From Selenomonadales bacterium (lineage in GTDB: Bacteria > Bacillota > Negativicutes > Sporomusales > UBA7701): DNA of 64,000 bases. Location: NCBI GenBank assembly GCA_018434945.1, contig JAHDOI010000089.1:1-64000 (forward strand). Direction: 5' to 3'. Below are positions 17,505 through 62,116 of this stretch, piece after piece. Each line of letters opens with the position of its first letter. Position 1 is the first letter of the stretch. The position numbers and the translations under genes were made by a program. The notes below the pieces were generated by a model that was given only the letters and a program-made list of their open reading frames with translations, did not search any database and had not been told where the DNA came from.

Positions 17505-18539
17505 TTATACCACGGCCACGATCTGCAGAGTCCGTTCGTGCAGGAGATTGACGATGCCTTCACGCGTCCAGACGACCGGCCTGGCCGGCTCCTGGCTGTT
17601 TATCCTCAGCACCGCCCCGGCAGAGCCGTTGTCGAATCTCACCGCGCTGCCGATATAATAGGGAACAACGATTTTGTTTACGGCATCGACGACCCGGCTA
17701 TCGAACTGCGTGCCCGCGCCGGCGTTTATTATGCGGATGGCCTCGTGGGCAGGGATGCGCGGCCGGTAGACCCGGTCGGTTATGAGGGCGTCGTAGACAT
17801 CGGCGACGGCTACGATGCTGGCAAGGGGATGGATTTTGTCACCGCCGATACCCCAGGGATAACCTCGTCCGTCCGGGCGCTCGTGGTGCTGGAGGGCCAT
17901 CAGGGCTATGCGGCAGTCGACTTCGGTCTCCATCCGCAGGACGTTATAGCCGAACGCGGTGTGTTTTTTGACCTGTTCGAATTCGTCGGGGGTCAGGGGC
18001 CCGTTCTTTTCGAGGACCTCGTTGGGGATACAGTTTTTGCCGTAGTCGTGGAGCAAACCGCCGAGGCCGAGGATGTATATCTCGTCACGCGAAAGGCCCA
18101 TAGCCATGCCGAAAGCGACGGCGAAAACGCCGACATCGACGCAGTGGCCGTACAGGTAGTCGCTTTTCTGCCTGATATCCGAAAGATATATCAAGAGGTT
18201 GCCATGCCCGGACAGTTCCTCAATGACCTTATGGATGCACTCACGCAGGCCAGGAAGGTAAGCGGCGATGCCGCCCCGGTTGCGGAAGGCGTGCTGCATG
18301 GTCTGGATCATGCTTAGCCTGGTGGCGGCGCTGATGAGGTTCGGGACGGCGGAAAGCTCCTTGTTGGGCGATTCGGGCGCGGTGACGCGGACGGTGCTGA
18401 CACCGTGCTTGCCGAGCAGGGCGACGATTTCCTTGCGGAGAGGCGTGCCGGCTGTGACGAGAACCTGGTTATGGCCGTTTATGATGTCTGCGGCCAGAAT
18501 CATGCTGCTGGTGGCTTGGACGAGCGGTACCTGCTTAAT
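17505..18539 (-). CDS. HD-GYP domain protein under a candidate riboswitch leader
   Basis: About 344 residues. The HD-GYP domain has LLHDYGK near residue 160 and HHERPDGRGYP near 216, so c-di-GMP hydrolysis is likely. The N-terminal part (PLVQATSSMILAADII) matches the layout of the HD-GYP protein at 12025. The start is uncertain: GGAGGTGA at 18545-18552 is an excellent ribosome site, and 7 bases after it lies an ATT codon (18539). The GTG at 18548 is inside that site, and earlier starts (TTG 18581) lie in the leader terminator. ATT would be a rare start and would imply tight control. Confidence 0.82.
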   Translation of the reverse strand: MKQVPLVQATSSMILAADIINGHNQVLVTAGTPLRKEIVALLGKHGVSTVRVTAPESPNKELSAVPNLISAATRLSMIQTMQHAFRNRGGIAAYLPGLRECIHKVIEELSGHGNLLIYLSDIRQKSDYLYGHCVDVGVFAVAFGMAMGLSRDEIYILGLGGLLHDYGKNCIPNEVLEKNGPLTPDEFEQVKKHTAFGYNVLRMETEVDCRIALMALQHHERPDGRGYPWGIGGDKIHPLASIVAVADVYDALITDRVYRPRIPAHEAIRIINAGAGTQFDSRVVDAVNKIVVPYYIGSAVRFDNGSAGAVLRINSQEPARPVVWTREGIVNLLHERTLQIVAVV

Positions 18540-18558
18540 AGCCGTCACCTCCGTTCGC

Positions 18559-18657
18559 ACAAAATAATAGAACCCCGCCAAACCTTTACAGTCCGGAGGG
18601 GTTCACTACTAGCTCAGTGTAAAATAAGTGACCACATAGTTTTTTACACGTCATCGC
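18559..18657 (-). ncRNA. Candidate attenuator riboswitch, copy B (HD-GYP leader)
   Basis: On the minus strand: GCGATGAC (18657-18650), an 8-bp stem GTGTAAAA/TTTTACAC (18649-18642 with 18624-18617), loop block GTGGTCACTT (18635-18626), then GAGCTAGTAGTG (18615-18604). UCACU of the loop can pair with AGUGA of the tail. GAACCCC/GGGGTTC (18604-18598 with 18576-18570) then forms a terminator-like hairpin that begins inside the tail, followed by TATTATTTT. The same blocks at the same spacing precede pilB (copy A, 45568-45671). No known riboswitch class is recognised. Confidence 0.6.
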
Positions 18658-18671
18658 ATTCCACTGTCTGC

Positions 18672-18677: not shown

Positions 18678-19046
18678 TTTAATTGGCATTCCTTTGATTG
18701 CTGACTAAAATTCGACATGACATAAGTGATTCCTGCTTGATTATTGGAAAAAATGATAAAAATTTACCATAATTTTTTATGTTGAAAATAGCGGGCAAGT
18801 GATCGGAGCGGCTCCTTCCAAGATGTTGTATTTCCGTGTATCGCCCTCCCCTTCCGGCAACCAAACCAGGCGTTTCACAAAAAAGGGAGGCGAGTGATGC
18901 CGTTTCTTGTTATGTAGCCGGTTTCCGGCACAAGGCTCTCGCAATAGTGTACATAATATAAAGGGAAGGGAAACGGTGCGCCGGTCGCGAATAATCCACC
19001 TGTAATCGTTTCCACGCAAGGGTAATCAACTACTGGAGGAAGACAG
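18678..19046. other. Intergenic region between divergent genes
   Basis: AT-rich stretch between the HD-GYP leader promoter and the CC-motif gene. It must hold the plus-strand promoter of the latter, but none stands out. Short open frames here (for example 18777-19019 minus) lack ribosome sites and protein-like composition. Confidence 0.5.
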
Positions 19047-32672: not shown

Positions 32673-32826
32673 GCTTTTCTTACCCCCAGCCGTGAAAATT
32701 CACTTGATAGTATTCGCCTCCGAGCGTTACTCTCCTGCCGACGGGTGACCGGCCAGTCCATAATATTTACAAAAACTAGAGCGACCCAGACAAAGGCCGC
32801 TCCAGGGGTAAAACGAAGCAGACGGG

Positions 32827-43840: not shown

Positions 43841-45520
43841 TTAACAGCTGCTGAAGGCCACGCGCATTACTTCCTCGACGGTGGTCAGCCCGCCGAGCGC
43901 TTTGGCGATGCCGTCTTCGCGCATGGTGGTCATGCCCTGGCTGCGGGCAAGGGCGGCCAGCTCGCCGGTGGATGCCCGGCGGATGATGAGCTCGTGCATC
44001 TCGGGCGTGACGGGCATGACTTCGTGTATGGCGACCCGCCCGCGGTAGCCGCTGTGGCCGCAGCGCATGCAGCCGATGCCGCGGTACAGTGTTACGTCGT
44101 CGTCGGGGCCGAGGCCGAGGAAATGACGCTCGGGCGAGTCGGCGGGGGGCGTGTATTTCTGTTTGCATTCCGGGCAGATGACCCGCACCAGGCGCTGGGC
44201 GACTACGCCGAGCACCGACGAGGCGGCCAGGAACGGCTCTATCTCCATATCGATGAGGCGGGTGATGGCGCCGGGGGCGTCGTTGGTGTGGGCGGTCGAG
44301 AGGACAAGATGGCCGGTAAGGGCGGCGCGGACGGCGATATCGGCCGTCTCGGTGTCGCGGATCTCGCCAACCATGATGATATTCGGGTCCTGGCGGAGGA
44401 TGGAGCGCAGGCCGTTGGCGAAGGACAGGCCGGCGCGGGGGTTGACCTGGACCTGGTTGACACCGTCGAGGCGGTACTCGACAGGGTCCTCGACGGTGAT
44501 GATGTTCTTGCCCGCCACGTTCACGACGGCGAGGGTCGAGTAGAGGGTGGTCGTCTTGCCAGAGCCGGTCGGGCCGGAGACGAGGATCATGCCGTGGGAC
44601 TGGCGGTATAGGTTGCGGTATTTACTGAGATTATCGGCGGAAAAGCCCAAACTGCTAATATCGAGAATCACCGTCTGCTTGTCCAGTATCCTGAGGACGG
44701 CCTTCTCGCCGAGGATGGTGGGCAGGGTGGACACGCGGATGTCGATGTCGCGGCCGGCCTCGTTTACCTTGATGCGGCCGTCCTGGGGCAGGCGCTTTTC
44801 GGCGATGTCCATCTCGCTCATTATCTTGACGCGCGAGATCAGCGACGCGTGGGTGTGGCGCGGGAAGGTGACCACCTCGCGCAGCACGCCGTCGATGCGG
44901 AAGCGGACGCGGAGGTTCTTGTCCTGGGGTTCGATGTGGATATCGCTGGCCCGGTCCTTGACCGCCTGGCTGATGAGCGAGTTGACGATGCTCACCGCCG
45001 GGGCGTCGTCGGCCGTCTGGATATCGGCGGCGAGCGGGTCGTCGAAGCGGATCCTGCTGGCCGCCTTTTCGACAAGCTCGCGCACGCCGTAGGTCTCGTT
45101 GATGGCCTGGACGATCTCACGCTCGGCGGCGATTACCGGATATATTTCGCAGCCGGTCACCATGCGCACGTCGTCGATGGCGTAGAAGTTTGTGGGGTCG
45201 ACCATCGCCAGGGTGAGCTTCTTGCCCTCTTTTTTGATGGGGAGCACCTGGTAGCGCTCCGCCAGGGCGGCGGGGATGACGGCGGCGACGTCGCTGCTGA
45301 CGGACATGGCCTTCAGTTCGACATGGGGGACGCCGAGCTGGAATTCGAGCACTTCGATAATGCCGTGCTCGGTTATGTAACCGAGGTTCACCAGGGTCTT
45401 GCCCAGGCGTTCGCCGGTTTTTTTCTGGACGGTGAGGGCTTTGTCGAGCTGGGCCTGCGTTATCATCCCCGCTTCGACAAGCAGGTCGCCGAGTTTTTTG
45501 CGGCTTTTCACCTTTGGCAC
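43841..45520 (-). CDS. pilB: Type IV pilus extension ATPase PilB with MshEN-type N-terminus
   Basis: A 559-residue ATPase that drives pilus assembly. Walker A SGPTGSGKTT is near 316, with a zinc pair site CPEC near 446 and CMRC near 482. Residues 8-65 contain two consecutive 24-residue-type repeats (KLGDLLVEAGMI and RLGKTLVNLGYI, each followed by a Leu/Gln segment), the pattern of MshEN c-di-GMP-binding domains; the first begins with Lys rather than Arg. First gene of the operon, below leader A. Confidence 0.93.
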   Translation of the reverse strand: MPKVKSRKKLGDLLVEAGMITQAQLDKALTVQKKTGERLGKTLVNLGYITEHGIIEVLEFQLGVPHVELKAMSVSSDVAAVIPAALAERYQVLPIKKEGKKLTLAMVDPTNFYAIDDVRMVTGCEIYPVIAAEREIVQAINETYGVRELVEKAASRIRFDDPLAADIQTADDAPAVSIVNSLISQAVKDRASDIHIEPQDKNLRVRFRIDGVLREVVTFPRHTHASLISRVKIMSEMDIAEKRLPQDGRIKVNEAGRDIDIRVSTLPTILGEKAVLRILDKQTVILDISSLGFSADNLSKYRNLYRQSHGMILVSGPTGSGKTTTLYSTLAVVNVAGKNIITVEDPVEYRLDGVNQVQVNPRAGLSFANGLRSILRQDPNIIMVGEIRDTETADIAVRAALTGHLVLSTAHTNDAPGAITRLIDMEIEPFLAASSVLGVVAQRLVRVICPECKQKYTPPADSPERHFLGLGPDDDVTLYRGIGCMRCGHSGYRGRVAIHEVMPVTPEMHELIIRRASTGELAALARSQGMTTMREDGIAKALGGLTTVEEVMRVAFSSC

Positions 45521-45567: not shown

Positions 45568-45671
45568 AAAAAAAGGGCAACCGTCAACAGCAAAAAAATT
45601 GCAAATGGTCGGTTGCACTACTAGCTCGGGTTCAGGCAAGTGCCCACTTTACGCCAAGAACTGTCATTGCT
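45568..45671 (-). ncRNA. Candidate attenuator riboswitch, copy A (pilB operon leader)
   Basis: On the minus strand: GCAATGAC (45670-45663), stem GTTC..GGC/GCC.GAAC (45661-45653 with 45637-45630), loop block GTGGGCACTT (45647-45638), then GAGCTAGTAGTG (45627-45616). GCACU of the loop can pair with AGUGC of the tail. The terminator GCAACCG/CGGTTGC (45616-45610 with 45583-45577) with a T7 run starts in the same tail, so tail-loop pairing and termination exclude each other. Blocks and the 10-base spacing between CACTT and GAGC are identical in copy B at 18559-18657. Confidence 0.65.
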
Positions 45672-45685
45672 CCCATATGTACTTG

Positions 45686-45714
45686 ATAGTAAAATGGTAC
45701 ATTCGACATAATAA
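45686..45714 (-). promoter_or_regulatory. Putative promoter of the pilus operon
   Basis: TTATTA and TACTAT spaced by 17 bases on the minus strand. Transcription would start about 8-10 bases before the first conserved block of leader A. The -35 box is weak. Confidence 0.45.
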
Positions 45715-45816
45715 GGAGCACTTCCTGCAAATTTATGTATTTTTTCGGGAATTTAACGAATTTTTCTTTATTATTTATTATCCAAGAACAACTATCTCCA
45801 TATTTCGACAAAAATC

Positions 45817-48120: not shown

Positions 48121-48828
48121 CTAAAACTGACCGTCTTCAGCGGACAGATTCTTGCTGAGCTTGCCGATAGCCCGCTTTTCGATCCGTGAGACATAAGACC
48201 GGGAGATGCCGAGCATCTTGGCGATGTCGCGCTGTGTCTTCTTGCCGCCGTCCGGCATGCCGAACCGCATCTCCAGCACCCATTTCTCCCTGCTGCTTAG
48301 GCGGTTTATCTGCTTGTTGAGCCGCTCCTGCTCGCATTGGATCTCGACCGCCTCGGCCACCACATCGGGGGCGGTGCCGAGCACATCGATCAACGTGATT
48401 TCGTTGCCCTCCTTATCCACGCCGATGGGGTCGTAAAGGCTGACCTCTGTGCGGGTGCGGCGGGTACTGCGGAAATGCATGAGGATCTCGTTCTCGATGC
48501 AGCGGGCGGCATAGGTGGCCAGACGGGTCTTTTTCCCCTGGTCGAAGGTGTTGATGGCCTTTATCAGGCCGATGGTGCCGATGGAGATGAGGTCGTCGAT
48601 CTCCTCGCCGGTATTGTCGAACTTCTTGACGATATGGGCTACCAGGCGCAGGTTCCTTTCGATGAGCACGTTGCGGGCTTTTTCGTCGCCGCTCTTGAGC
48701 CGCTCCAGATAGTGCTGCTCCTCCTTTTCCGACAGCGGCAGCGGGAAGGTGTTGTTGGTCAGGTAGGCGACCAGGAAGTACAGTCCCTTGGCAACGGCGG
48801 CCGCTAGGACCGCAAAAAAAGAAACCAA
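48121..48828 (-). CDS. sigK: Sporulation sigma factor SigK
   Basis: A 235-residue late mother-cell sigma factor. The hydrophobic N-terminus (FFAVLAAAVAKGLYFLVAYL) is the pro-sequence normally removed by SpoIVFB. Region 2 (DEKARNVLIERNLRLVAHIVKKF) and region 4 with the HTH (TQRDIAKMLGISRSYVSRIEKR) follow. The gene is not split by a skin-like element. The start is TTG behind GGGGGTG. A sigma-E-like -10 lies about 32 bases upstream. It shows the organism makes endospores. Confidence 0.94.
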   Translation of the reverse strand: MVSFFAVLAAAVAKGLYFLVAYLTNNTFPLPLSEKEEQHYLERLKSGDEKARNVLIERNLRLVAHIVKKFDNTGEEIDDLISIGTIGLIKAINTFDQGKKTRLATYAARCIENEILMHFRSTRRTRTEVSLYDPIGVDKEGNEITLIDVLGTAPDVVAEAVEIQCEQERLNKQINRLSSREKWVLEMRFGMPDGGKKTQRDIAKMLGISRSYVSRIEKRAIGKLSKNLSAEDGQF

Positions 48829-61805: not shown

Positions 61806-61955
61806 CCCCCGGATCGCTGACGGCCACACCGTCTTCCATCGGGGGTTTACTTCGCCTCGGGGATTAGCTGCCGGGTTAGGGCCAGAGGAAAAGACGCCCT
61901 TCCGCGCATCTGCGCGGATTCACCCCTCTATATGTAGTGGTTCTCCCCTACCTGA
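61806..61955 (-). promoter_or_regulatory. c-di-AMP (ydaO/yuaA) riboswitch and expression platform
   Basis: On the minus strand the aptamer (61955-61850) has the conserved parts GTAGGGGAGAACC, GGGGTGAATCC, a GCGC-rich hairpin, GGAAGGGCG, CCCTAACCCGG and CAGCTAATCCCCGAGGCG, matching the ydaO motif. A CCCCCGAT...ATCCGGGGG hairpin (61845-61806) lies between it and the ribosome site, so control may be on translation. ydaO RNAs bind c-di-AMP and turn down cell-wall hydrolases. Confidence 0.85.
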
Positions 61956-62116
61956 TATGGATTCGGCGTACTATATCGTGAATTGTATTCTACAGGAATA
62001 GGAAAAATCCTTTTTCTGTTGCAAAATTATGGCGATTAAAGCAAATCAGGAAAAATCTACCAGGAACCCTGTCTTCTAAAGGCCGGTGTCCCTGGCGCGT
62101 CCAAAACACGATCTTT
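61956..62116. other. Gap between the c-di-AMP riboswitch and the porin gene
   Basis: About 160 bases holding the promoter of the riboswitch transcript (a TATAGT box is near 61975-61980 on the minus strand) and the 3' end of the porin transcript. No strong terminator for the porin was seen. Confidence 0.4.

Follow-up and report, generated by a model that had tools for sequence, protein, structure and literature searches.

A c-di-GMP-II riboswitch before pilB and a close relative before an HD-GYP gene in one Selenomonadales genome

The window, by which we mean the whole 64,000-nucleotide stretch of DNA analysed, carries a type IV pilus operon on the minus strand in the order pilB-pilT-pilC ... 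comFB-pilM-pilN-pilO. The open reading frame of pilB, the first gene, reaches 45520, and a GTG at 45511 is better placed behind AAGGAG as its start (43841–45511, –). PilB consists of an N-terminal MshEN (c-di-GMP-binding) domain and a T2SSE domain, and its two MshEN motifs are largely retained, as KLGDLLVEAGMITQAQLDKALTVQ-KKTGE-RLGKTLVNLGYITEHGIIEVLEFQ, with the first R replaced by K (motif reference, PMC5013675). Near the pilus operon, a gene for a sigma-70-family sigma factor was found at 48262–48723 (–), matching the sigH model weakly (51 bits). Elsewhere in the window lies a gene of the HD-GYP-type c-di-GMP phosphodiesterases (17505–18539, –; HD_5, PF13487, 1.2e-25), whose coding end is at 17505 and whose likely start is an AUU near 18537. 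Its product has the HDYGK, HHE and GYP motifs and probably breaks down c-di-GMP. The start region (18530–18545, –) apparently uses AUU, ~8 nt past GGAGG; this position is AUU or AUC in five genomes of the genus (AUC in G002), and G001 lacks the GUG located within the ribosome-binding site.

An earlier sequence-only reading had proposed a new-looking attenuator motif in the pilB leader at 45568–45671 and had judged it not to match c-di-GMP-II. In the Rfam scan of the window, however, this leader matched the c-di-GMP-II family RF01786 over its full length (45683–45598, –; model 1–84) with 54.8 bits, 1.3 bits above the curated gathering cut-off of 53.5 bits. The reported range thus marked a real element, but the aptamer starts at 45683, and the first 12 nt of the P1 5' strand had been omitted. 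The same copy scored 42.2 bits with RF03169 in clan competition, and the covariance-model comparison gave no match to RF03170. A covariance-model scan for c-di-GMP-I (RF01051) found no match at this switch or at the one before the HD-GYP gene (below); four RF01051 copies are present elsewhere in the genome. When the entire 3.8-Mb genome was searched with RF01786, the pilB copy (E = 3.3e-11) and the HD-GYP copy (E = 6.9e-9) were the only two found, and because of these values chance can be excluded. Positions are numbered along what we take to be the reference sequence of structure 3Q3Z. Its letters agree with the 13 ligand contacts tabulated for that structure (PMC7288161), 12 of which are kept in the pilB copy; the remaining one, A13, is G, as seen in 11 of 48 homologs. 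By its sequence, the pilB-leader element is a member of the already known c-di-GMP-II class and not a new one.

All five ordered parts described earlier were located in the minus-strand sequence of the pilB leader, namely GCAATGAC, a hairpin, GTGGGCACTT, GAGCTAGTAGTG and a terminator reusing GCAACCG, except that the loop block, said to follow the hairpin, lies inside the hairpin loop. The loop strand GCACU (45639–45643, –), within the P2 loop, pairs with AGUGC (45615–45619, –) as a pseudoknot, which is a feature of the c-di-GMP-II class itself. The second copy was noted at 18559–18657 as having equal spacing, and GTGG(G/T)CACTT and GAGCTAGTAGTG are indeed exactly 10 bases apart in both. The difference between GCACU/AGUGC in the pilB copy and UCACU/AGUGA in the HD-GYP copy is a genuine compensatory change. 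Relatives were drawn from 150 genomes, from the same genus up to the class, with an RF01786 match in 31. The pseudoknot was paired in 42 of 42 aligned aptamers (100% of cells), and its variable first pair takes three forms, GC (20), AU (14) and UA (8), the last being the change spotted in the sequence-only reading. Over 26 pairs in the 42 aligned aptamers the covariation score was 0.513; shuffles gave 0.198, and sliding the partners by 1–3 columns gave no more than 0.132. Energy folding of the aptamer alone missed the native fold (z = +1.17); such programs omit pseudoknots.

The pilB-leader terminator, correctly said to reuse the tail block, was redrawn as a hairpin GCAACCG...CGGUUGC at 45577–45616 (–) followed by a T-run at 45568–45574 (–), and its 5' arm is the aptamer junction strand 45616–45610. 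The corresponding hairpin of the HD-GYP copy, GAACCCC...GGGGUUC (18570–18604, –), likewise reuses the junction strand and is followed by a T-rich tail (18569–18561, –). Both hairpins are strong for their composition (–16.0 kcal/mol, z = –4.45 for the 58-nt pilB stretch; –23.1 kcal/mol, z = –4.63 for the 46-nt HD-GYP stretch). The strand used as their 5' arm (GCAACCG and GAACCCC, respectively) is the one with which the aptamer closes its pseudoknot and connects to P1, and because of this overlap aptamer and terminator are mutually exclusive. The riboswitch architecture proposed earlier, with pseudoknot and terminator in competition, is therefore supported by both sequence and covariation. Among relatives' leaders having a hairpin with a T-run, the best one begins within the aptamer in 44 of 46, in a loose search run without a shuffle control in which a few picks were larger spurious folds. 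A simple terminator scan of the minus strand returned no supported terminator, because the loops of both terminators exceed the length that it allows.

The aptamer before the HD-GYP gene (18586–18669, –) falls below the RF01786 cut-off. RF01786 is its best family, at 46.6 bits (E = 2e-9 locally), 6.9 bits under 53.5, so that by this score test it is not filed as a member but is a close relative. It keeps the contact letters U37, G39, A61, A69, C71 and C72 of 3Q3Z and carries A70C and G73C at ligand-contact positions, while a further change, C68A, is compensated within the pseudoknot. Both C70 and C73 occur in all five genomes of the genus, in which the copy is near letter-identical, including P2, the pseudoknot and the terminator. 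We consider that it very probably works like an RF01786 member.

How the two copies should be read was weighed against three other explanations. The idea first proposed, a riboswitch class with no kinship to any known family, drew on the failure to recognize the motif and on the HD-GYP copy lying under the curated cut-off. The full-length match above the cut-off refutes this for the pilB copy, and the pseudoknot, the P2 loop and the CAACCG junction are the same as in the solved class; we regard a new class as almost certainly wrong. A different proposal is that A70C and G73C have turned the HD-GYP copy into a c-di-GMP-II variant for a changed ligand, either another cyclic dinucleotide or a derivative. 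In its favor, all five genus genomes share these two letters and also retain U37, G39, A69, C71 and C72, and Rfam does include variant families with other contact letters (RF03169, GAG; RF03170, GCG). Yet those two models score the copy at only 32.1 and 35.3 bits against 46.6 for RF01786, 12 of 48 relatives, counting the five genus copies, have a letter other than G at position 73, and the product of the downstream gene itself probably degrades c-di-GMP. Moreover, when 85,000 genomes were searched for C70 combined with a non-G letter at position 73, genuine aptamers turned up in Clostridium, Frackibacter, Pelosinus, Psychrobacillus and Peribacillus, and the Peribacillus C70/C73 aptamer precedes a gene whose protein has a type IV pilin N-terminus. 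Because such aptamers occur in several genera, one of them before a pilin gene, C70 and C73 alone are no argument for another ligand. A coherent C70/non-G73 variant class was rejected on the same search, the true matches being scattered over several genera with mixed genes, which leaves a ligand change unsupported. We therefore consider an altered ligand quite improbable, and the fuller form of the idea, in which one genus would combine a canonical switch with a c-di-GMP-II-fold variant (A69, C70, C73) of changed ligand preference, both behind promoters of one type, has an equally slim prospect.

In the third explanation, the HD-GYP copy has decayed and no longer responds to a ligand, so that its terminator alone is active. 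Its low RF01786 score and two altered contact letters would fit, and decay does appear in the clade: pilB is preceded by weak 27–28-bit remnants in two genomes, and in G002 by a leader with no aptamer match. Near letter-for-letter conservation of P2, pseudoknot and terminator across the five genus genomes argues against it, and we find it unlikely. For the pilB leader, a c-di-GMP-II switch that controls termination in the ON sense is the explanation that we hold with high confidence.

Both switches are preceded by the pattern GCAGGAA...GTCGAAT, in the form GCAGGAAGT-N12-GTCGAAT for pilB (45701–45728, –) and GCAGGAATC-N11-GTCGAAT for the HD-GYP gene (18710–18736, –). The sigma-H consensus is RNAGGAWWW-N11/12-RNNGAAT, which we take the pattern upstream of both switches to fit. 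AGGA-N17/18-GAAT was found upstream of 18 of 20 pilB switches (mean of 0.16 in shuffles) and of three of the five HD-GYP switches in the genus (0.05), compared with 2 of 22 other switches (0.29). The strict form GCAGGA-N16/17-CGAAT had 38 matches in the genome versus six for the reversed control, and a sigH gene scoring over the NCBIfam cut-off is present as well. We infer that the sigma-H-like promoters are in use; their common type points to a joint requirement for a transition-phase sigma factor and c-di-GMP. The strict pattern also occurs at 32712–32738 (–), upstream of an HlyD/AcrB-type efflux operon (32672–28371). AGGA-N17/18-GAAT begins at 62011 as well, near a ydaO (c-di-AMP) riboswitch (61838–61978, –; 76.2 bits) that precedes an NlpC/P60 peptidoglycan hydrolase gene. 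A sigma-70 promoter scan of the minus strand gave no supported promoter, the switch promoters not being sigma-70-like. A Spo0A-box reading of TGTCGAA, which stands upstream of both switches, was rejected because this sequence belongs to the sigma-H-like promoter as its –10 part and other genomes do not retain it.

The expectation that further homologous copies would stand upstream of regulated genes was borne out. PilB orthologs were counted as full-length when they aligned from the N-terminus. Of the 45 such orthologs in the related genomes, the switch lies 51–137 nt upstream of pilB for 20, the window's own genome included, and ~3.5 kb upstream for another two. Other genes behind c-di-GMP-II switches in the relatives encode ShlB-type transporters, RTX-repeat proteins, polysaccharide export, Flp pilus RcpC and GGDEF proteins; these are typical c-di-GMP targets or of undefined role. 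The two switches that precede GGDEF genes (L039, L046) may mean that genes of c-di-GMP turnover are more frequent targets of the class in this clade. In G002, of the same genus, a terminator-like hairpin GCAACC...GGTTG with a T-run stands before pilB (leader L143), apparently a switch whose aptamer was lost. The remnants in G027 and G022 (leaders L126 and L127) look as if they were decaying switches.

Family membership of the pilB copy, the covarying structure, the overlap of aptamer and terminator, the gene context and the conservation are directly supported, and the following mechanism of ligand binding, regulatory sense and feedback is predicted from them. Because the genome encodes 32 GGDEF domains, c-di-GMP is likely made. 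At low c-di-GMP, the AGUGCAACCG strand would form the terminator (GCAACCG/CGGUUGC plus U7) and transcription would end before pilB. With c-di-GMP bound, the pseudoknot and P1 would retain this strand, the terminator would be blocked and the pilus operon would be transcribed. Since the terminator reuses the pseudoknot-junction strand in both copies, the predicted action is ON, so that the pilus genes are probably turned on at high c-di-GMP. The identical geometry before the phosphodiesterase gene suggests negative feedback on c-di-GMP. If so, c-di-GMP turnover would here be governed by a c-di-GMP switch, an uncommon arrangement that is described as rare (PMC6366702). The pilB leader adds a clear case to the class, and control of pilB by such a switch is common in this bacterial class, judging from the orthologs sampled. 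One signal may then hit PilB twice, through pilB transcription and through an ATPase with a c-di-GMP-binding domain.

Compared with known systems, both copies resemble RF01786 in full secondary structure, pseudoknot and leader position, and have in common with it the conserved UGG and CAACCG letters and a size of 84–86 nt, the pilB copy differing at position 13. The c-di-GMP-II-GAG (RF03169) and -GCG (RF03170) families belong to the same clan and fold, and the GAG family likewise departs from the class at ligand-contact letters; however, RF01786 scores higher for both copies, and A69 and U37, changed in the GAG consensus, are kept in both. The four class II switches of C. difficile are all ON switches, and before pilA1 the ligand-bound aptamer prevents termination (PMC6366702, PMC6200980); the sense predicted here is the same. 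Like the pilB switch, C. difficile Cdi-2-4 is a class II switch ahead of type IV pilus genes that is reported to turn them on by terminator read-through. Cdi-2-4, however, precedes the major pilin gene pilA1, whereas the switch described here precedes the assembly ATPase gene pilB, in a different bacterial class (relatives labelled Selenomonadales).
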